This document shows, piece by piece, positions 24,381-35,947 of a stretch of DNA of 64,000 nucleotides (position 1 is the first letter of the stretch; each line of letters starts with the position of its first letter). A program made the translations under genes and the position numbers. The DNA is from Bacteroidales bacterium (lineage in GTDB: Bacteria; Bacteroidota; Bacteroidia; Bacteroidales; UBA932). Below the pieces are notes generated by a model. The model searched no databases and was not told the DNA's origin. It saw only the letters and a list, made by a program, of their open reading frames with translations. The stretch lies in the NCBI GenBank assembly GCA_017626355.1, contig JAGAIY010000023.1:1-64000 (forward strand), written 5' to 3'.

Positions 24381-24700
24381 AGTTCCGTCCTTATTTCTGT
24401 AAGCTGCTGCCTTATCGACTTGAGCGACTCCAGCACGCGAGCCTTGTTTATGACATCCTTCCTGTCTCCCTTGAGACGCTTGGCCGCTCCTTCAAGAGTC
24501 AGGCCCTCAACCTTTACAAGCATATGGATATGCTTGAATGTCTCCACATCCTCCTTCTTGAACAGACGGTTTCCCTTGGCGTTCCTTTCAGGATGTATGA
24601 ACTTAGGGAACTCATTGGCCCAGAAGCGCACCAGAGAAGTGCTTTCTCCCAGAATCCCGGCAACCTCGCCGATTGTGTACAGGTACTTTTCCATAATCAA
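24377..24700 (-). CDS. MerR-family DNA-binding protein
   Basis: 107-residue protein with a MerR-type winged helix at the N-terminus: YTIGEVAGILGESTSLVRFW (7-26) followed by GNRLFKKEDVETFKHI. The second half is a short helix and no effector-binding domain, metal cysteines or drug pocket are seen. Start by ATG 24700 overlaps the stop of the M23 peptidase gene; a second ATG lies two codons in. It overlaps nif3 by four bases at the other end. Regulatory target unknown; its tight coupling to peptidoglycan peptidase genes suggests a cell-wall or growth link. Confidence 0.88.
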   Translation of the reverse strand: MIMEKYLYTIGEVAGILGESTSLVRFWANEFPKFIHPERNAKGNRLFKKEDVETFKHIHMLVKVEGLTLEGAAKRLKGDRKDVINKARVLESLKSIRQQLTEIRTEL

Positions 24701-25608
24701 TCCATCGACTGTCCTGTCGAAACCGACAGAATCATCATGTTTATATATTCTTCAGGGGTGACGCTGGCAAACATATGGTTCACCGGATCGAGAACGACGG
24801 TATCCCTGAGCACTTCGTAATGGAGATGAGGGGCGAACGAGTTGCCGGACACGCCGACATGGCCAATACGCGTCCCCCTTCTGACCTTCCGGCCCCTTAC
24901 CGCCTCAACATCAGACAGATGGGCGTACCGGGTGAAATATCCGTTCTCATGGTCTATGACCACCACATTGCCAAGTCCCTTGCGAGACCGGATAACTTCC
25001 TTGACGACTCCGTCTGCCGCGGCATGCACAGGCTCTCCGGAAGGGGCGATCAGATCAAGGCCGTCATGTCTCATGTTCACTTTATAGAAAGGGTTCATCT
25101 TGTCACCCGTCGAGGCCCCCGTCTGGGCGAAAGAGAAATCTTCCAGAGGGCTGGTCATCGGAGGCATGACAAAACCTGAATCGGAAATGACTTCCATCAC
25201 CTGACGGAAATTCGCCTCCACAAGATTCGAGCAGCTTTCCAGGAAAGCGATCTTCTTTTCAGCATACTGGACTATGTCGTTGTCCGCGATGGAGTCGAGA
25301 CCGGCAAGAAAATCGACGGAAGCATGAGGTTCCATATCAGGAGCCGAGGTATGGAATATATTCTCGTATATGAGGTCGTCCTTCACCCTGAGACCTTCCA
25401 CCACATCGGCTATGAGAGCTTCCTTGCGGGAGAGTTCGGGAAACTCCTGCTCGTACATACGGTTTTCCATGAGCAGCCTCCTCTCCGTATCCGTGCTGAA
25501 TATCAGAGCGAAGACGGCATAGTACAGGATGGCCATCGAGAGCGTTCCCACAAAGAACCTCAATATCCTGCGCAAGACCTTTCCTACTGTAAGTTTACGT
25601 GCCTTCAT
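24697..25608 (-). CDS. M23-family peptidoglycan endopeptidase, second of two
   Basis: 303-residue membrane-anchored zinc metallopeptidase. One transmembrane helix near the N-terminus (about 14-36), a helical stalk, then the LytM/M23 domain with intact zinc and catalytic residues: HDGLD (His, Asp), YAHLS and the HLH of PHLHYEV. It should cleave peptide cross-links of peptidoglycan or regulate an amidase. It is a divergent paralogue of the gene just upstream, whose stop codon shares one base with its ATG. It overlaps merR by four bases. Confidence 0.92.
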   Translation of the reverse strand: MKARKLTVGKVLRRILRFFVGTLSMAILYYAVFALIFSTDTERRLLMENRMYEQEFPELSRKEALIADVVEGLRVKDDLIYENIFHTSAPDMEPHASVDFLAGLDSIADNDIVQYAEKKIAFLESCSNLVEANFRQVMEVISDSGFVMPPMTSPLEDFSFAQTGASTGDKMNPFYKVNMRHDGLDLIAPSGEPVHAAADGVVKEVIRSRKGLGNVVVIDHENGYFTRYAHLSDVEAVRGRKVRRGTRIGHVGVSGNSFAPHLHYEVLRDTVVLDPVNHMFASVTPEEYINMMILSVSTGQSMD

Positions 25609-26579
25609 TACCTGCCCTTTACCTTTTTCTGATGTGACGGATGGAGAGTGATCTTCGGAGAAGCATCCGCCGTACTCTGGACGAGGGTCGAATATTCATC
25701 CGGAGACATATCCAGATCATAATAGTTGTAAGGATTGACCGGCCGTCCCTTGTATAACACTTCATAGTGGAGATGAGGTCCGGACGATTTGCCCGAATTG
25801 CCGCTCTGACCGATGCACTCCCCTCTCTTCACAGGCATGCCTTCCACCACTCCGATGGACTTCAGGTGGGCATAGCGGGTCTTGTATCCGAAGCCGTGGT
25901 CTATCAGCACGGAGTTACCGTATCCGAAGAATTCGAAGCCCACGCTCTCCACCACGCCATCTCCCGTCGCATATACCGGATTGCCCGGCTTCATGGAGAA
26001 ATCCACTCCCTTATGCATCGTGCTGCGTCCGGAGAACGGATCGGACCTGTACCCGAAAGTGCTTGAAAGCCTGTATTTCCGCTTATCCGGAACGATCGGA
26101 GGTATGGCCGGGATGCACGAAGCCATGTCGCCCGCCCTTTTCGAAAGAAGAGCCACCTCGTCGAACGAACGGCTCTGGACATAGGTCTTCTTGGTCATCC
26201 TGTCAAGCCTTATGGCCGTATTCTTCAAGAGGCCGTCAGCGTCTATAAGGTCGTATTTCTCATATCGGTTGACTCCACCGAAGCCGGCATTCCTGACCGC
26301 AGCAGGAATCTCGTTCATACCGAAGATGGCACGGTAGATGTCGTCATCCCTCATCTGAAGCATGTTCAGGGCCTCATCGTGCCTGTCCAGCTGGGAGTTC
26401 AGCACTTCTATCTTCGATCCCCACTGCGCATTGCTCTTCTTCAGATAGGCGGTCTTCGGCAGTTCAAGCCCAAGCACAGACGTATATATCCAGAAATATA
26501 TAAACGCCATGACAAGACTGACCGCGAACATTACGCCCAACCTCAGAAATCCCCTCTTATGTCTTTCTTTTTTTTGCAT
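25608..26579 (-). CDS. M23-family peptidoglycan endopeptidase, first of two
   Basis: Membrane-anchored zinc metallopeptidase of 323 residues from the chosen ATG at 26579. The N-terminus is KKERHKRGF followed by a transmembrane helix, then a stalk and the M23 domain with HKGVDFS, RYAHLKS and PHLHYEV, all zinc ligands present. The open frame extends 17 codons further (to 26630), but a consensus promoter (26586-26619) lies inside that extension and the basic residues at MQKKERHKRG are the normal membrane-entry signal. A typical M23 pair sits opposite alaS in this phylum. The predicted transcription start almost coincides with the ATG. Confidence 0.9.
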   Translation of the reverse strand: MQKKERHKRGFLRLGVMFAVSLVMAFIYFWIYTSVLGLELPKTAYLKKSNAQWGSKIEVLNSQLDRHDEALNMLQMRDDDIYRAIFGMNEIPAAVRNAGFGGVNRYEKYDLIDADGLLKNTAIRLDRMTKKTYVQSRSFDEVALLSKRAGDMASCIPAIPPIVPDKRKYRLSSTFGYRSDPFSGRSTMHKGVDFSMKPGNPVYATGDGVVESVGFEFFGYGNSVLIDHGFGYKTRYAHLKSIGVVEGMPVKRGECIGQSGNSGKSSGPHLHYEVLYKGRPVNPYNYYDLDMSPDEYSTLVQSTADASPKITLHPSHQKKVKGR

Positions 26580-26585
26580 AACAGG

Positions 26586-26619
26586 CAAATATAGTAAAAA
26601 AAGAGATATTTTCCACAAA
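26586..26619 (-). promoter_or_regulatory. promoter of the M23/merR/nif3 operon
   Basis: TATATTTG (26586-26593) with TTTG at 26616-26619 and a 22-base spacer, one longer than usual. The predicted transcription start is about 26580, next to the chosen ATG at 26579. Confidence 0.6.
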
Positions 26620-26645
26620 GCGTCCTGCATATGAGAAAAAAATTG

Positions 26646-26716: not shown

Positions 26717-29332
26717 ATGACTTCTAAAGAAATCAGAAAAGCATTCTTGGACTTCTTTGCTTCAAAGGGCCATCAGATCGTGCCATCGGCACCTATGGTC
26801 GTAAAGAACGACCCCACTCTTATGTTTACAAATGCCGGAATGAACCAGTTCAAGGACTGGTTTCTCGGTAACAGCCCCGCTAAATGGAAGAGGGTTGCGG
26901 ACAGCCAGAAATGTCTCCGTGTCAGCGGAAAGCACAATGACCTCGAAGAGGTAGGACGAGACACATACCACCATACGATGTTCGAAATGCTCGGAAACTG
27001 GAGCTTCGGCGACTACTTCAAGGAAGAGGCCATAGACTGGGCATGGGAGCTCCTCACAGAGGTGTACAAGCTCGACAAGGACAGACTCTATGCAACAGTG
27101 TTCGAAGGTTCCGAGGCTGACGGCACACAGCTCGACACAGAAGCTATGGAAGCATGGAAGAAGCATCTTCCGGAGGACAGGATCCTGCTTGGAAACAAGA
27201 AGGACAACTTCTGGGAAATGGGCGATACAGGCCCTTGCGGCCCATGTTCGGAGATCCATATCGACCTTCGTTCAGACGAGGAGCGTGCCGCTGTTCCGGG
27301 CGCATCGCTTGTCAACAAGGACCATCACCTCGTGATCGAGATCTGGAACAATGTGTTCATGCAGTACAACCGCAAGGCAAGCGGAGAGCTTGAGCTTCTC
27401 CCTAACAAGAACGTGGACACAGGAATGGGCTTCGAGCGTCTCTGCATGGCTCTCCAGGGCAAGCAGTCAAACTACGACACAGACGTATTCACCGGAATGA
27501 TCTCAAAGATCGAGGAGCTTTCGGGACATAAATACGGAAACACTACAGAAGAGGATATCGCCATGCGCGTTATCGCAGACCACATCCGTGCCATCAGCTT
27601 CTCCATCGCTGACGGCCAGCTTCCTTCAAACGTGAAGGCCGGCTATGTGATCCGCCGCATCCTCCGTCGTGCAGTAAGATACGGATATACTTTCCTCGGC
27701 TTCAACGAGCCTTTCCTCTGCCGCCTCGTGCAGCAGCTTATCGACGACATGGGCGAGTTCTATCCTGAAATCGTCAAGCAGCAGACCCTCATCGAGCGCG
27801 TGATCAAGGAAGAGGAGATGGCTTTCCTCCGCACTCTCGACAGAGGTATCCGCCTGATGGACAACATCATGGCAAAATCAGCAGAGACAAAGGTCATTTC
27901 AGGAGAGGATGCATTCGTGCTCTATGACACCTTCGGTTTCCCTATCGACCTTTCGGAGCTCATCGCTTCGGAGAAGGGATATACCATCGACCTCGAAGGC
28001 TTCCAGGTGGAGCTTCAGAAGCAGAAGGACAGGGCAAGAAACGCGACAGCGATCGAGTCCGGAGACTGGGTGGAGTTCGCACACTGCGACAACATCGAGT
28101 TCCTCGGCTATGATGCGACAGAGATAGAGGGTGTCCAGCTCACCCGTCACCGCACCGTAAAGGCAAAGAACAAGACAATGTACCAGCTCGTGTTCGAGCG
28201 CACTCCGTTCTATGCCGAGATGGGAGGTCAGGTCGGAGACACCGGCTACATCCTTTCAGAGAGCGGCGAGAAGATAAACATCGTCAACACGATCAAGGAG
28301 AACAACCTTACCATCCATGTAGCGGAGCGCATTCCTTCCGACTGCACTGAGAGCTTCAGCCTCCATGTGGATGCGGAAAGAAGGACACAGATCGAGAACA
28401 ACCATACAGCGACCCACCTTCTCCATCAGGCCCTCCGCGAAATCCTCGGAACACATGTGGAGCAGAAGGGTTCATATGTATGTGACAAATATTTCCGCTT
28501 TGACTTCTCTCATTTCGAGAAGCTCAGCGACGAGCAGGCAAAGCTTGTGGAGAGAAGGGTCAACGAGCTCATCAGAAGCAACAACCCTCTCGACGAGAAC
28601 CGCAACGCCACCATGGAGCAGGCACAGGAGATGGGCGCGATGGCCCTCTTCGGAGAGAAGTACGGCGACACTGTACGCGTGATCAGATTCGGTGATTCAT
28701 GCGAGCTCTGCGGCGGTACACATGCAGCAGCAACAGGACGCATCGGATATTTCAGGATCGTTTCAGAGTCGGCTATCGCTGCCGGAGTACGCCGTATCGA
28801 GGCTACTACAGGAGTACACGCCGAGGCTCTCGTCGACGAGATGGCTGAGACAATCCATGCAGCAAAGGCATTCTTCAACAATGTCCCTGACCTCGCAGGA
28901 GCCATCAGGAAGATGGTCGAGGAGAACGAGGCGTACAAGAAGCAGATGGAGGAGATCGCAAAGGAGAAGACTCTTGCCCTCAAGAACAGCCTCAAGGGCA
29001 TGGCAGTAGAGACCAAGGGCATCAATGTAGTGAAGATCGATACTCCTATGGATCCGGTGATGCTCAAGAATGCGGCATTCATGCTCCAGAAGGAGGCGCA
29101 GAACCTCGTGATCGCCGCAGCGTTCGAGAGCGCAGGCAAGCCGCAGCTCCTGCTCATGTACTCCGAGGACCTTGTAAAGGCCGGCCACAACGCAGGCGCC
29201 GATGTACGCGAAGCTGCAAAGCTCATCCTCGGCGGAGGCGGCGGACAGCCTGGACTTGCTACAGCAGGAGGAAAGAAGGCTGAAGGTCTTAAGGAAGCCC
29301 TCGACTCAATGATTGAGGCCGCTGTAAAATAA
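26717..29332 (+). CDS. alaS: alanyl-tRNA synthetase
   Basis: 871-residue enzyme that charges tRNA-Ala. The N-terminal catalytic domain begins [16 protein letters not shown] and contains [15 protein letters not shown] (motif 1 region). The editing domain carries the zinc motif [11 protein letters not shown] (HxxxH) and CGGTH (near residue 658) with SCELC. The C-terminal domain ends with the Gly-rich [10 protein letters not shown] segment. Length and order are standard. The lptF-fmt fusion follows after six bases, so tRNA charging and initiator-tRNA formylation are co-expressed. Confidence 0.98.
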
Positions 29333-29338
29333 GATGAA

Positions 29339-31798
29339 ATGAAGAAGCTTGACCAGTTCATACTGAAGTCATTCGTGGGACCGTTCTTTGCGATCCTGCT
29401 TGTGGTCGTGTTCATCCTCGTGATGCAGTTCCTATGGCTTTATATCGATGAGCTGGTCGGCAAGGGACTGAGTCTCAAGGTCATACTCGAATTTCTCGGC
29501 TGGGGAAGCGTGACCATGCTTCCGCTTTCCCTCCCGCTCGCCACCCTGCTGGCTTCGATGATGACTCTGGGAACCTTGGGAGAAAACAACGAGCTCCTCG
29601 CGATAAAGGCTGCTGGCATATCTCTACAGAGGGTCATGATACCTTTGGGAATATGCTGCGCTCTTATCAGCGTCGGAGCCTTCTTCATCTCCAACGACCT
29701 CATTCCCGTAGCATACAACAAGATATACACTCTCAGGGACGATATCGGAAAGACCAAGGACGAGATCAAGATTCCGACCGGTACATTCTACAACGGTATC
29801 GACGGCTACATCCTCAGAGTCAATGAGAGGAACGACGAAACAGGCATGATGCACGGAGTGATGGTATACAACCACACCGGCAACAAGGGCAACACAAGCC
29901 TCACGCTCGCGGACTCTGCTCTCATGAAGATGTCCAAGGACAAAAGCTACCTCAACTTCGTCCTCTTCAACGGATCCAACTACGAAGAGACCAACGAGAA
30001 GAAGTTTCGCGACACTACCCTTCAGTTCCAGAAGATAGACTTCAGCAGGCAGGAAATGTTCATTCCTCTGGAGAACTACGCCTTTCAGAAATCGGATTCC
30101 TCACGATTCGACGACCAGGTCAAATCAATGAACCTGAAGCAGCTGTATCATGACCAGGACTCCATCGGAAAGCTGAGCCTCACCGCAAAGAACGAGAACT
30201 ACGATGCTATCAGAAGGTCAAGGACACTGATCTACAACTCACAGCTCGACACCGCAGGAAAGGAGGGAAGAAGCACGAACTTCAACAAAGATGTCACCCA
30301 GTGGAGAAGCATAGAGATGGAGATCACTGCTGTCGGCAAGGCCAAGAAGGCCGCAGAGGACATGCAGATGGTTCTGACCTCATATTCAAGAGAAAGGTTC
30401 CAGTACACATTCAAGCTCAGGAACATCGACATCGAGATCCTCAAGAAGTTCGCGCTTGCGATAGCATGCTTCGTCTTCTTCTTCATCGGAGCGCCTCTCG
30501 GAGCCCTTATCCGCAAGGGCGGTCTCGGTACGCCTGCCATCATCTCGGTGCTTTTCTTCGTTGCATACTGGGTTATCGACATTTCGGGAACCAAACTGGC
30601 CCGAGACGGAGCCGTGGGACCGTTCCACGGAGTATTCTTCTCCAGCTACGTACTGCTTCCTACAGGACTGTTCCTGACATGGAAGGCCATAAACGATGCA
30701 TCCATCTTCAATATGGATCTGATAAAGAGCGGATTCAAAAAGTTTATTTCCAAGATCATGGGCAAAGCCAGAAAGACAAGGATCGTGTACATGGGTACTC
30801 CTGAATTTGCGGTCGCACCGCTCGAGGAGCTCATCAAGACAGGACATAACATCGTAGGAGTTGTCACTGTTGCAGACAAGGCCAGCGGACGCGGCCTCAA
30901 GATAAATGAAAGCGCAGTCAAGAAGTACGCCGTAGAGCATGGCATTCCGGTGCTCCAGCCGGTTTCCCTCAAGGATCCGGAATTCCTCGAGGCCCTCAAG
31001 GCATGGAAAGCCGACATATTCGTCGTGGTGGCCTTCAGGATGCTTCCTAAGGTCGTATGGGAGATGCCGAGACTCGGAACATTCAACCTCCACGCCGCCC
31101 TCCTTCCTCAGTACAGAGGTGCCGCTCCTATAAACTGGGCAGTGATAAACGGAGACAAGGCGACCGGAGTGACAACCTTCATGATCGACGAGGGAATGGA
31201 TACCGGAGGCATCATGTTCAGGGAACAGTGTCTTATCGGTCCTGATGAGAACGTCGGCCAGGTGCATGACAAGCTCATGGCCATAGGTTCCGACCTTGTC
31301 GTACAGACAGTCGACGCAATAATCGAGAACAACGTCGAGACAAGGGTGCAGAAGAGCTTCATACAGGGATCCGAAACCCTCAGGCCTGCCCCTAAGCTCA
31401 CAAGGGAGCTCATGCACATAGACTGGAATGTCAAGACGAAATACGCATACAACCTGATAAGAGGTCTCAGCCCATACCCTGCAGCATTCACGGAACTTGT
31501 CAAGGATGACAAGACCATCCAGATGAAGATCTACGCCGCGGCCAAGGTTACAGGAGAGGACTACACAGCCATGCTGGAACAGAACGGCATAGAAGCCGCA
31601 GCTCCGGGAACCGTACTGTCGGATGGCAAGACTTATCTTGCAATAGCCGCTTCGGACGGAGCCATAAGCATTACAGAGCTTCAGATCTCCGGAAAGAAGA
31701 GAATGGCTGTAAAGGACTTCCTCATCGGTTTCCGTGAGCCTCAGACATACACAACATCCAAAGGTACCTCATCATCCATCACCGGACACCATGCATAA
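29339..31798 (+). CDS. LptF/LptG permease fused to methionyl-tRNA formyltransferase
   Basis: One open frame of 819 residues joins two unrelated proteins. Residues 1-470 are an LptF/LptG-family permease: membrane segments about 15-35, 55-80 and 100-120, a periplasmic domain about 130-345, and three C-terminal helices about 370-450. Such permeases extract lipopolysaccharide with LptB. Residues 479-805 are a complete Fmt: RIVYMGTPEFAV (481-492), the formyl-transfer residues Asn583, His585 (FNLHAALLPQYRG) and Asp621 (EGMDTGGI), and the C-terminal barrel domain ending KDFLIGFR. The join, FKKFISKIMGKARKT, has no stop or frame change. Met474 (ATG at 30758) could start a free Fmt, because normal Fmt begins a few residues before RIVYMGTP. 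It overlaps the thiamine diphosphokinase gene by eight bases. Confidence 0.9.
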   Translation: MKKLDQFILKSFVGPFFAILLVVVFILVMQFLWLYIDELVGKGLSLKVILEFLGWGSVTMLPLSLPLATLLASMMTLGTLGENNELLAIKAAGISLQRVMIPLGICCALISVGAFFISNDLIPVAYNKIYTLRDDIGKTKDEIKIPTGTFYNGIDGYILRVNERNDETGMMHGVMVYNHTGNKGNTSLTLADSALMKMSKDKSYLNFVLFNGSNYEETNEKKFRDTTLQFQKIDFSRQEMFIPLENYAFQKSDSSRFDDQVKSMNLKQLYHDQDSIGKLSLTAKNENYDAIRRSRTLIYNSQLDTAGKEGRSTNFNKDVTQWRSIEMEITAVGKAKKAAEDMQMVLTSYSRERFQYTFKLRNIDIEILKKFALAIACFVFFFIGAPLGALIRKGGLGTPAIISVLFFVAYWVIDISGTKLARDGAVGPFHGVFFSSYVLLPTGLFLTWKAINDASIFNMDLIKSGFKKFISKIMGKARKTRIVYMGTPEFAVAPLEELIKTGHNIVGVVTVADKASGRGLKINESAVKKYAVEHGIPVLQPVSLKDPEFLEALKAWKADIFVVVAFRMLPKVVWEMPRLGTFNLHAALLPQYRGAAPINWAVINGDKATGVTTFMIDEGMDTGGIMFREQCLIGPDENVGQVHDKLMAIGSDLVVQTVDAIIENNVETRVQKSFIQGSETLRPAPKLTRELMHIDWNVKTKYAYNLIRGLSPYPAAFTELVKDDKTIQMKIYAAAKVTGEDYTAMLEQNGIEAAAPGTVLSDGKTYLAIAASDGAISITELQISGKKRMAVKDFLIGFREPQTYTTSKGTSSSITGHHA

Positions 31799-32450
31799 CA
31801 ATGTCGTCATCATCTGCGACGGAGAATTCCCGAAAACGGAATATCCGCGATACCTCATCCGTACAGCGGATTTCATCATATGCTGTGACGGAGCTCTGGT
31901 CAAGTTCCTGCGCAACAGCAAGGCTGTTTTCGGACAGGAAAGGCTTCCCGACCTGGTCATCGGAGACATGGACACCCTTTCGTCCGCAATGCAGAAGCGG
32001 TATGCCGACATCATCATAAAGGAAGACGAACAGGATCATAACGACCAGACCAAGGCTGTCAGATGGGTCCTTAACAATCTGAAAGGAGTCGAGTGCATCC
32101 GCATTGTCGGAGCGTCAGGAGGTCGTATCGACCATACGATAGGCAACGCATCCCTGCTGATGGAATACACACGGATGTTCGACCTGGACGGCATAAGCAT
32201 CGAATCGGTTTCCGACAACGGGACGATCTTCCCGATCTGCGACACGACCGAGATCGAGTGCGGATACGGCAGGAGCGTATCTATATTTTCCCCCGACAAC
32301 AGTCTGAAGATAAGGTCGGAAGGACTCATGTACCCTACAGACGAGGTTGTTTTCGACAACTGGTGGAAGGCGACTCTCAACAAAAGCACAGCCGAAACAG
32401 TAAGGTTGACTTTCAGCCACAGGTCCCTTGCCTTGATAGTTCTGGACTAA
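31791..32450 (+). CDS. thiN: thiamine diphosphokinase
   Basis: 219-residue cytosolic enzyme that transfers diphosphate from ATP to thiamine, giving the cofactor used by Dxs and pyruvate-handling enzymes. Motifs: CDGAL near the N-terminus, DLVIGDMDTL (Mg-binding), DHNDQTKA, and GASGGRIDHTIGN. I chose the ATG at 31791, which overlaps the fusion gene by eight bases and gives the family N-terminus (HNNVVIICDG); an ATG 19 codons upstream adds only a low-complexity His/Pro stretch. No thiamine riboswitch is visible upstream of the operon. Confidence 0.92.
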   Translation: MHNNVVIICDGEFPKTEYPRYLIRTADFIICCDGALVKFLRNSKAVFGQERLPDLVIGDMDTLSSAMQKRYADIIIKEDEQDHNDQTKAVRWVLNNLKGVECIRIVGASGGRIDHTIGNASLLMEYTRMFDLDGISIESVSDNGTIFPICDTTEIECGYGRSVSIFSPDNSLKIRSEGLMYPTDEVVFDNWWKATLNKSTAETVRLTFSHRSLALIVLD

Positions 32451-34849: not shown

Positions 34850-35947
34850 TTACTTCGGAGCTATCCTGTAAAGGAAGGCCGCGATTATCGCGAACACGAC
34901 ATTCGGAATCCATAGGGCGATGAAAGGTGGAAGGGCACCTGCGTGGACGAACATCTGACTGAATCGCAGGAAGAGGATATAGGTGAAGGCCAAGGCGATA
35001 CCTATTCCGATATTCCAGCCTATACCACCCCTTCGCTTCTTGGATGACAGGGCCACTCCCATGATCGTCAGAATAAATGCCGAGAATGGGAGGGCAAAAC
35101 GTGTATTCTTCTCGATCTGAGCGAACTTGACATTTGCATCACCTCGAAGCTTCTGAACATCTATCAGCTCGTTGAGTTCCTGATAGTCAAGGGTTTCCAC
35201 AGTCTTTTCCGTCATATAGAAATCCTTGACGGACAGATCGATGACAGTATCCAGCTGCTTTCCGCTGCGGACTTTGTCAGTCAGGTCGTCATTGTACTCG
35301 CGGATGAAATACTTCTTGAGTCTCCATGAACAGTTCACAGTATCATATACTGCCGTCTCAGCGGAAATCTTCGATACAAGCTTGTTGTCCTCGATCTTCT
35401 CGAGAGTGAACTTATAGGCGGTATTGTTCCATTTGCTGAAAGACTCGGCATAGACGAACTCGCCCGGAGCCAGCTGATAATGCACATTCCTTCCCACCGA
35501 CTTGTAACGGTTCTTGATGTACTGGTTCTCGAAGTCCAGCCTCGTCTTGTTCGCATCCGGTATTATGAACAGGTTCAGACAGAGCGAGAATATGGCGATG
35601 AGCGTCGCCGAGAACAGGTACGGGAGCATCATCCTGTGGAAACTGACGCCACACGACAGTATGGCCACTATTTCAGAATCCGCAGCCATCTTGGACGTGA
35701 AGAATATAACCGTAATGAACACGAACAGAGGACTGAACATGTTCATGAAGTATGGCACGAAGTTCAGATAATAGTCGAAGATGATGGCCTTGAGCGGAGC
35801 CTCCTTCGATACGAAGTCATCGATCTTCTCGCTGATGTCGAAGATGATGACGATGCCTATGATAAGGAGCAGCGCCACAAAGAATGTGACGATGAACTTC
35901 TTGACAATGTAAACGTCAAGCTTTTTCGGTCTGAGGTCAAAATCCAT
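34850..35947 (-). CDS. LptF/LptG-family permease
   Basis: 365-residue inner-membrane protein with the family layout: N-terminal helix (about 14-34), two more helices by about 110, a periplasmic domain (about 130-265), and three C-terminal helices. The start MDFDLRPKKLDVYIVKKFI is typical for the copy next to tgt. It is the usual length, unlike the 819-residue fused copy 3 kb away; together they would supply the two permease halves needed with LptB for lipopolysaccharide export. The gene follows tgt by five bases. Confidence 0.9.
   Translation of the reverse strand: MDFDLRPKKLDVYIVKKFIVTFFVALLLIIGIVIIFDISEKIDDFVSKEAPLKAIIFDYYLNFVPYFMNMFSPLFVFITVIFFTSKMAADSEIVAILSCGVSFHRMMLPYLFSATLIAIFSLCLNLFIIPDANKTRLDFENQYIKNRYKSVGRNVHYQLAPGEFVYAESFSKWNNTAYKFTLEKIEDNKLVSKISAETAVYDTVNCSWRLKKYFIREYNDDLTDKVRSGKQLDTVIDLSVKDFYMTEKTVETLDYQELNELIDVQKLRGDANVKFAQIEKNTRFALPFSAFILTIMGVALSSKKRRGGIGWNIGIGIALAFTYILFLRFSQMFVHAGALPPFIALWIPNVVFAIIAAFLYRIAPK

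Follow-up and report, generated by a model that had tools for sequence, protein, structure and literature searches.

Methionyl-tRNA formyltransferase (Fmt; TIGR00460, with the E. coli structures 1fmt and 2fmt) is normally a free soluble enzyme. The LptF and LptG permeases of LptB2FG (PF03739) reside in the inner membrane, each with six transmembrane helices and a C-terminus in the cytoplasm. Formyl-transferase domains fused to other proteins are familiar from ArnA, 10-formyl-THF dehydrogenase and linear gramicidin synthetase, in which the joined domains belong to one pathway and the acceptor is not initiator tRNA. In infB and cheA, an in-frame internal start yields a long and a short product from one gene. 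In the 64,000-nucleotide stretch of Bacteroidales DNA analyzed here (the window), an LptF/LptG-family permease and an Fmt share one open reading frame. This fusion is real and conserved, a confirmed union of two known families. No paper on a permease-Fmt fusion was found in the literature searched, most subscription journals lying outside that material.

The fused ORF occupies 29339..31798 on the forward strand and translates as a single 819-codon frame (819 aa) with no internal stops. Its permease domain (residues 7-449, 29357..30685, forward strand) matches PF03739 (LptF_LptG) over its full length, at 228.9 bits against a cut-off of 27.9 (E 1.2e-67). Because this half scores below both NCBIfam equivalog cut-offs (150.5 versus 230 for LptF, 97.5 versus 240 for LptG), we name it only as a member of the LptF/LptG family. 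Its sequence matches to solved LptF and LptG chains (5x5y, 6mit) are weak, and a simple hydropathy scan finds five separate hydrophobic regions over threshold where six helices are expected for the family. The formyl transferase N-terminal domain (Formyl_trans_N, residues 481-657, 30779..31309, forward strand, E 2.8e-35) is followed by the C-terminal domain (PF02911, Formyl_trans_C, residues 686-798, 31394..31732, forward strand; 67.1 bits, cut-off 21.1, E 1.7e-18), and this half passes TIGR00460 (fmt) at 232.9 bits against a cut-off of 201.5. The closest solved structure is E. coli Fmt (1fmt, E 4.5e-60), with which it shares both domains, the Gly-Arg-Gly loop and, in the N-terminal domain, Asn583, His585 and Asp621. 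These three, which we take to be the catalytic residues, are identical in an alignment to 1fmt and unchanged in 19/19 fused proteins. The original prediction, made from the sequence of the window alone, had described an uninterrupted 819-codon frame containing a complete permease and then a complete Fmt with all catalytic residues; translation, Pfam and TIGR00460 bear it out, and the Met474 that it placed at 30758 is indeed an ATG at codon 474 (30758..30760, forward strand). Unlike a typical soluble Fmt, the fused enzyme forms the C-terminal part of a membrane-protein frame. The permease differs from known LptF and LptG in carrying an enzyme of ~340 residues, besides its scores under both equivalog cut-offs. 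ArnA, 10-formyl-THF dehydrogenase and linear gramicidin synthetase come up as relatives of the Fmt half and likewise join a formyl-transferase domain to another protein, but the halves of LptF/G-Fmt serve unrelated pathways.

Directly upstream on the same strand, 6 nt away, lies alaS (26717..29332, forward strand; TIGR00344). Downstream, a thiamine diphosphokinase gene (31791..32450, forward strand; TIGR01378, ORF 31734-32450) shares its first 8 nt, counted from an ATG read from the sequence, with the 3' end of the fused ORF (31791-31798), so that the gene row stays tightly packed. A second LptF/LptG-family permease of 365 aa (34850..35947, reverse strand; PF03739) is a possible partner subunit; it too falls under the LptF and LptG equivalog cut-offs and is filed accordingly. 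Two M23 peptidase genes of 303 and 340 aa stand in tandem at 24697-26630 on the reverse strand.

In the genus of the window (g1), 34 of 37 genomes carry the junction within a single open frame, and an open frame of 791-862 aa containing both halves is found in 33 of the 37. In G025 the junction is in frame and the permease half is broken farther upstream; G004, G010 and G014 give no match over the junction. Among named public genomes 72 of 74 loci are fused, the other two having Fmt only (L099) or permease only (L103). These fused loci are titled Bacteroidales or Bacteroidia, come nearly all from metagenome-assembled genomes (MAGs), and include Candidatus Cryptobacteroides faecigallinarum, intestinavium and caccocaballi. 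PMC8035907 places Candidatus Cryptobacteroides in the GTDB family UBA932, and we infer that g1 is this genus and f1 this family. In all, 121 distinct fused ORFs were collected.

The junction foreseen by the original prediction is therefore no error, because the fused state recurs in 34/37 genus genomes and 72/74 named loci. Of the two observations that were to count against it, separate genes in relatives do exist, and a sequencing error at the junction is ruled out. That the fusion is a sequencing, assembly or annotation artefact might be suspected from the prevalence of MAGs among the named genomes; recurrence in separate genome records excludes it for the window and leaves it next to no chance in general. 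One locus that could be such an artefact is that of G119, the sole fused genome among the three of its genus examined.

A family-wide search of 299 genomes with the Fmt model was made, and 30 chosen genomes were searched again, giving 15 fused and 15 separate (the latter including G050, of another family). Fused genera among the matches listed are g1, g27, g29, g30, g39, g40 and g41, some of them from one genome only, and g26 and g47 have both fused and separate members among those matches. In an order sample of 393 genomes from 120 families, stop-free matches to both halves occur in 4 of 6 f1 genomes among the matches listed; in a phylum sample of 395 genomes, the only both-half match among those listed is in the window's own genome. 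No fusion appears among the matches listed for the 387 other order and 394 other phylum genomes (five common to both), in lists ranked by E-value where fused matches would rank first and fragmented ones could be missed. Within Bacteroidota, where the spread was examined, the fusion is confined to one family in the genomes sampled. Two apparent fusions elsewhere were rejected. The 821-aa frame of G050 (f15) is actually two genes in the same frame with intervening stops, the span holding two, and the large 'open frame' of G423 arises where a permease, a ribBA-like gene and fmt share one frame with stops between them.

Sixty regions were retrieved, 23 of them fused, 34 with both genes apart and 3 with no permease in the region. 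In five outer families, 3.6-3.7 kb lie between permease and fmt, and in g31 and g32 the spacing is about 1.2 kb. Family f93 has 1.4 kb with one gene, presumably ribBA-like, in between; its locus L200 (G423:C22:29000-37000) is intermediate between the 3.6-kb spacing and direct contact. At 25 of 27 separate family loci the permease stop lies -16 to +80 nt from the start of Fmt homology, the two frames differ in all 27, and 16 of the 25 close loci have an in-frame Fmt ATG before the end of the permease gene. In g36 and g43 (five loci: L169, L172, L173, L196 and L197), the permease TAG is read out of frame from conserved Ile-Val codons near the Fmt start. Since the genes abut or overlap in different frames, a small indel would be enough to fuse them. 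The unfused permeases of L178 (G067), L179 (G066) and L187 (G116), from genera g32, g31 and g45 respectively, have a C-terminal tail of 172-181 residues past the anchor, in the position where Fmt is joined elsewhere; at other separate family loci the tail measures 29-68 residues.

The fused or separate state has changed repeatedly, with at least three changes on the best trees. A permease+Fmt tree of 46 rows, an AlaS tree of 41 rows and a combined AlaS+permease+Fmt tree of 41 rows, all from short searches, each require 3 changes, 2 of them forced by well-supported branches; a permease+Fmt tree of 57 rows that includes G119, likewise from a short search, requires 4, with 3 so forced. Placing the fused rows in one clade is rejected with p-AU 0.0066 for permease+Fmt, 0.0015 for AlaS and 5e-7 for the combined set, and with p-AU 6e-9 when G119 is included, a rejection that does not separate gain from loss. 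G119, whose region contains no AlaS and which is thus absent from the combined tree, has separate members of its genus beside it and would be one further event unless it is an error. One early fusion in the ancestor of a 28-row clade, later undone by two or more fissions, would suit the combined tree, where a starred clade unites all 21 fused rows with 7 separate ones and where one gain plus two losses would account for the 3 changes. Three gains are, however, equally costly on that tree, the count rises to 4 on the permease+Fmt tree that includes G119, in which separate g28 and g34 sit near fused rows at unresolved forks, and only 2 or 3 changes are forced by well-supported branches. We regard a single origin, as against several fusions, as falling just short of an even bet.

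The alaS-permease junction served as an unfused control for the permease-fmt junction, in 132 distinct loci with both genes. The alaS-permease gap is -60 to +150 nt in 121 of these, with all three frames represented; in the other 11 the genes are 152-285 nt (eight loci) or about 2 kb (three loci) apart. None of the 121 tight loci has an alaS-permease fusion, and permease and fmt are fused in 99 of them, a count that is no frequency, since the set is enriched in fused loci by the way it was gathered. Tight packing alone is insufficient for fusion in this operon, although an extra tail on AlaS or an extra head on the permease may be less well tolerated.

The two halves are joined by a basic, amphipathic linker of 32 residues (450-481, 30686..30781, forward strand). 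Counted from anchor residue 449, it measures 31-33 residues in Cryptobacteroides-type ORFs and 31-47 in other fused genera. Codons 458-481 are nearly gap-free in 102 sequences; few gaps are seen in other variable stretches of the protein as well. Net charge ranges from +2 to +12 (mean 6.15, 120 linkers), and across 95 linkers the helical moment averages 0.47, compared with 0.27 (sd 0.14) in shuffles, which suggests a helix, basic and amphipathic, at the membrane face. With the permease half in the inner membrane, the basic and probably helical linker of about 32 residues would join it to Fmt, and a read-through product would display Fmt on the cytoplasmic face; tethering in the full-length product is proposed because of the topology of LptF/LptG permeases. 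Where the linker has no ATG, GTG or TTG, as in 5 of the 120 fused ORFs, a tethered Fmt is probably the only form. The membrane anchoring of Fmt put forward in the original prediction gains from this topology and from the five start-less linkers; the link that it drew to nascent membrane-protein synthesis finds no support.

An internal Fmt start at Met474, with tight co-expression, had also been suggested, and for the window's own lineage such a start has indirect support. Of the 120 fused ORFs with a boundable linker, 14 have no ATG in it and 5 have no ATG, GTG or TTG; only the 5 count as start-less, because GTG or TTG seems to serve as the Fmt start in some separate relatives. The test set comprised 101 Cryptobacteroides-type ORFs (from genus genomes, named loci and seven further g1 regions, with duplicates removed). 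Of these, 60 have an ATG at codon 474, 17 at 476 and 33 at 459, and 95 have one somewhere in codons 455-481. Met474, at 60/101, is conserved no better than the neighbouring residues. Ahead of Met474 (n = 60) the adenine fraction is 0.75 at -3, 0.92 at -6 and 0.88 at -12, versus 0.34, 0.40 and 0.23 for 1863 other internal ATGs, a pattern largely explained by Lys and Ile codons. In Bacteroidetes an A at -3 favours initiation, according to PMC6847099.

Synonymous positions carry a further signature. Third-position AT content (AT3) upstream is 0.50 for Met474, 0.52 for the true start (93 sequences) and 0.27 for other internal ATGs. Matched for amino acids, AT3 in the seven codons before Met474 (467-473, 30737..30757, forward strand) is 0.501 observed against 0.297 expected where Met474 is kept (n = 60), 0.533 against 0.245 where Met476 is kept (n = 15) and 0.307 against 0.277 with neither (n = 26), an excess of +0.236 with an ATG at 474/476 (75 ORFs) and of +0.042 without (26). 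This AT-rich signature upstream of a kept ATG 474/476 is a new observation, and the stretch is a probable initiation context. In a phylogenetic regression of AT3 on ATG 474/476 the effect is +0.14 with t 3.07 (101 ORFs), for a codon window that was picked after the AT-rich context had been seen. None of 101 control windows reaches this t (largest 2.42), and the same regression at 24 other polymorphic internal ATG positions gives a largest t of 1.56. The windows directly upstream are opposite in sign (460-466, t -2.42; 453-459, t -1.95), ATG 474 without pooling of 476 gives only t 1.5, and M459, tried as an alternative start, was rejected with no significant association (t 0.68). A binary independent-pairs test of the internal ATG, run before the continuous regression, gave no significant result (median p 0.25 over 9 pairs); the relatedness tree behind both is a FastTree tree with a long-branch warning. 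Synonymous diversity at the junction is ordinary and not reduced (ratio 1.02), RNA structure there does not exceed that of shuffles (z -0.17), and no promoter was found by two simple scans, the second with a Bacteroidetes-type motif.

Since the AT-rich synonymous stretch tracks the internal ATG, the gene of the window probably yields both LptF/G-Fmt and free Fmt. The suggestion of a start at Met474 is thus favoured by the AT3 signature corrected for relatedness and not by the binary pairs test; we consider such a start likely in the window's lineage, where Met474 would be the former Fmt start codon, persisting in a start-like context. The AT-rich context could also be a decaying relic. The probable long and short products recall those of infB and cheA; the arrangement differs in deriving from two once-separate neighbour genes, and is predicted here from sequence.

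Copy number was examined in 26 genomes, 25 fused (16 in which both halves were matched by homology, 9 judged from frame length alone) and the separate G083. Each has exactly one match over the Fmt cut-off, which in 25/25 fused genomes sits in a frame of 796-856 aa; no second, free Fmt exceeds the cut-off in these 25, and 17 further matches are all below it. The single copy in the window's genome is weaker evidence than in its near-complete relatives, because that genome is only 74% complete. Peptide deformylase (PF01327) is present in all 26, and 13, including the window's own genome, have a second deformylase match. In L209 (G111:C10:81000-88500) the second deformylase starts, as read by eye, with a hydrophobic stretch ending in Ala-Gly-Cys, which is lipoprotein-like, so that the protein is possibly exported as a lipoprotein. 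Also in G111, a deformylase frame of 1032 aa was dismissed: its length comes from open sequence ahead of a normal gene.

We put at about 0.7 the probability of an inherited fusion with both halves working, two products in the window's lineage and only tethered Fmt in some others. Two adjacent operon genes, for an LptF/LptG-family permease and the cell's sole recognisable Fmt, would have become one by true fusion, both halves most likely retaining their ordinary jobs. The window's lineage would most likely make a fusion of ~90 kDa and a free Fmt of ~38 kDa (both estimated), and some other lineages, having lost all the usual linker start codons, would probably have tethered Fmt only. We infer both the topology and the production of two active products. 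If instead the fusion polypeptide were the only product in all fused lineages, Met474 would be a relic and initiator-tRNA formylation would take place wholly at the inner membrane. Linkers without ATG (14/120) or any usual start (5/120), the want of a promoter-like junction signal in two simple scans, ordinary synonymous diversity and the non-significant pairs test agree with this; we nevertheless think it unlikely, given that synonymous AT-richness follows the internal ATG after correction for relatedness and does so more weakly at 24/24 other ATG positions, and that 95/101 ORFs retain an ATG in codons 455-481. Cleavage of a whole polypeptide in the linker, freeing Fmt, would suit a basic and variable linker, but no conserved cleavage motif is seen by eye in the listed linkers, and we hold it to be very improbable.

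A different question is why the fusion is retained; a neutral answer is almost as probable here as one that invokes function. Overlapping genes would lose their frame boundary by a small indel, harmlessly, the state would flicker and the tether would have no function. This can be true together with two products from an inherited fusion. It is in keeping with the separate relatives, most of which overlap or abut in another frame, one small indel from fusion; with the 3 changes of state on the best trees (4 with G119); and with linker lengths that vary between genera (31-47). Set against it are a frame unbroken in 34/34 genus genomes showing the junction, an adjacent tight alaS-permease junction fused in 0/121, and a nearly constant linker length in Cryptobacteroides-type ORFs, the last tempered by the gap-poor state of other variable parts. 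Neutral fusion as a whole we rate only slightly less probable than its contrary.

On the preferred reading of an inherited, working fusion with two products in the window's lineage, a normally soluble translation-initiation enzyme, in its sole recognisable copy, rides on a membrane protein of unrelated job in an uncultured genus of gut bacteria. The fusion opens to test the activity of tethered Fmt, the cellular location of formylation, and the ways in which the downstream start codon survives or disappears when genes fuse. A further proposal, which we consider rather doubtful, is that in start-less lineages all initiator-tRNA formylation occurs on the LPS exporter, at the inner face of the inner membrane, and that lineages with Met474 adjust, through the strength of that start codon, how much of the enzyme is tethered and how much free. 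If true, exporter-bound formylation would couple translation initiation to outer-membrane building, both physically and in stoichiometry.
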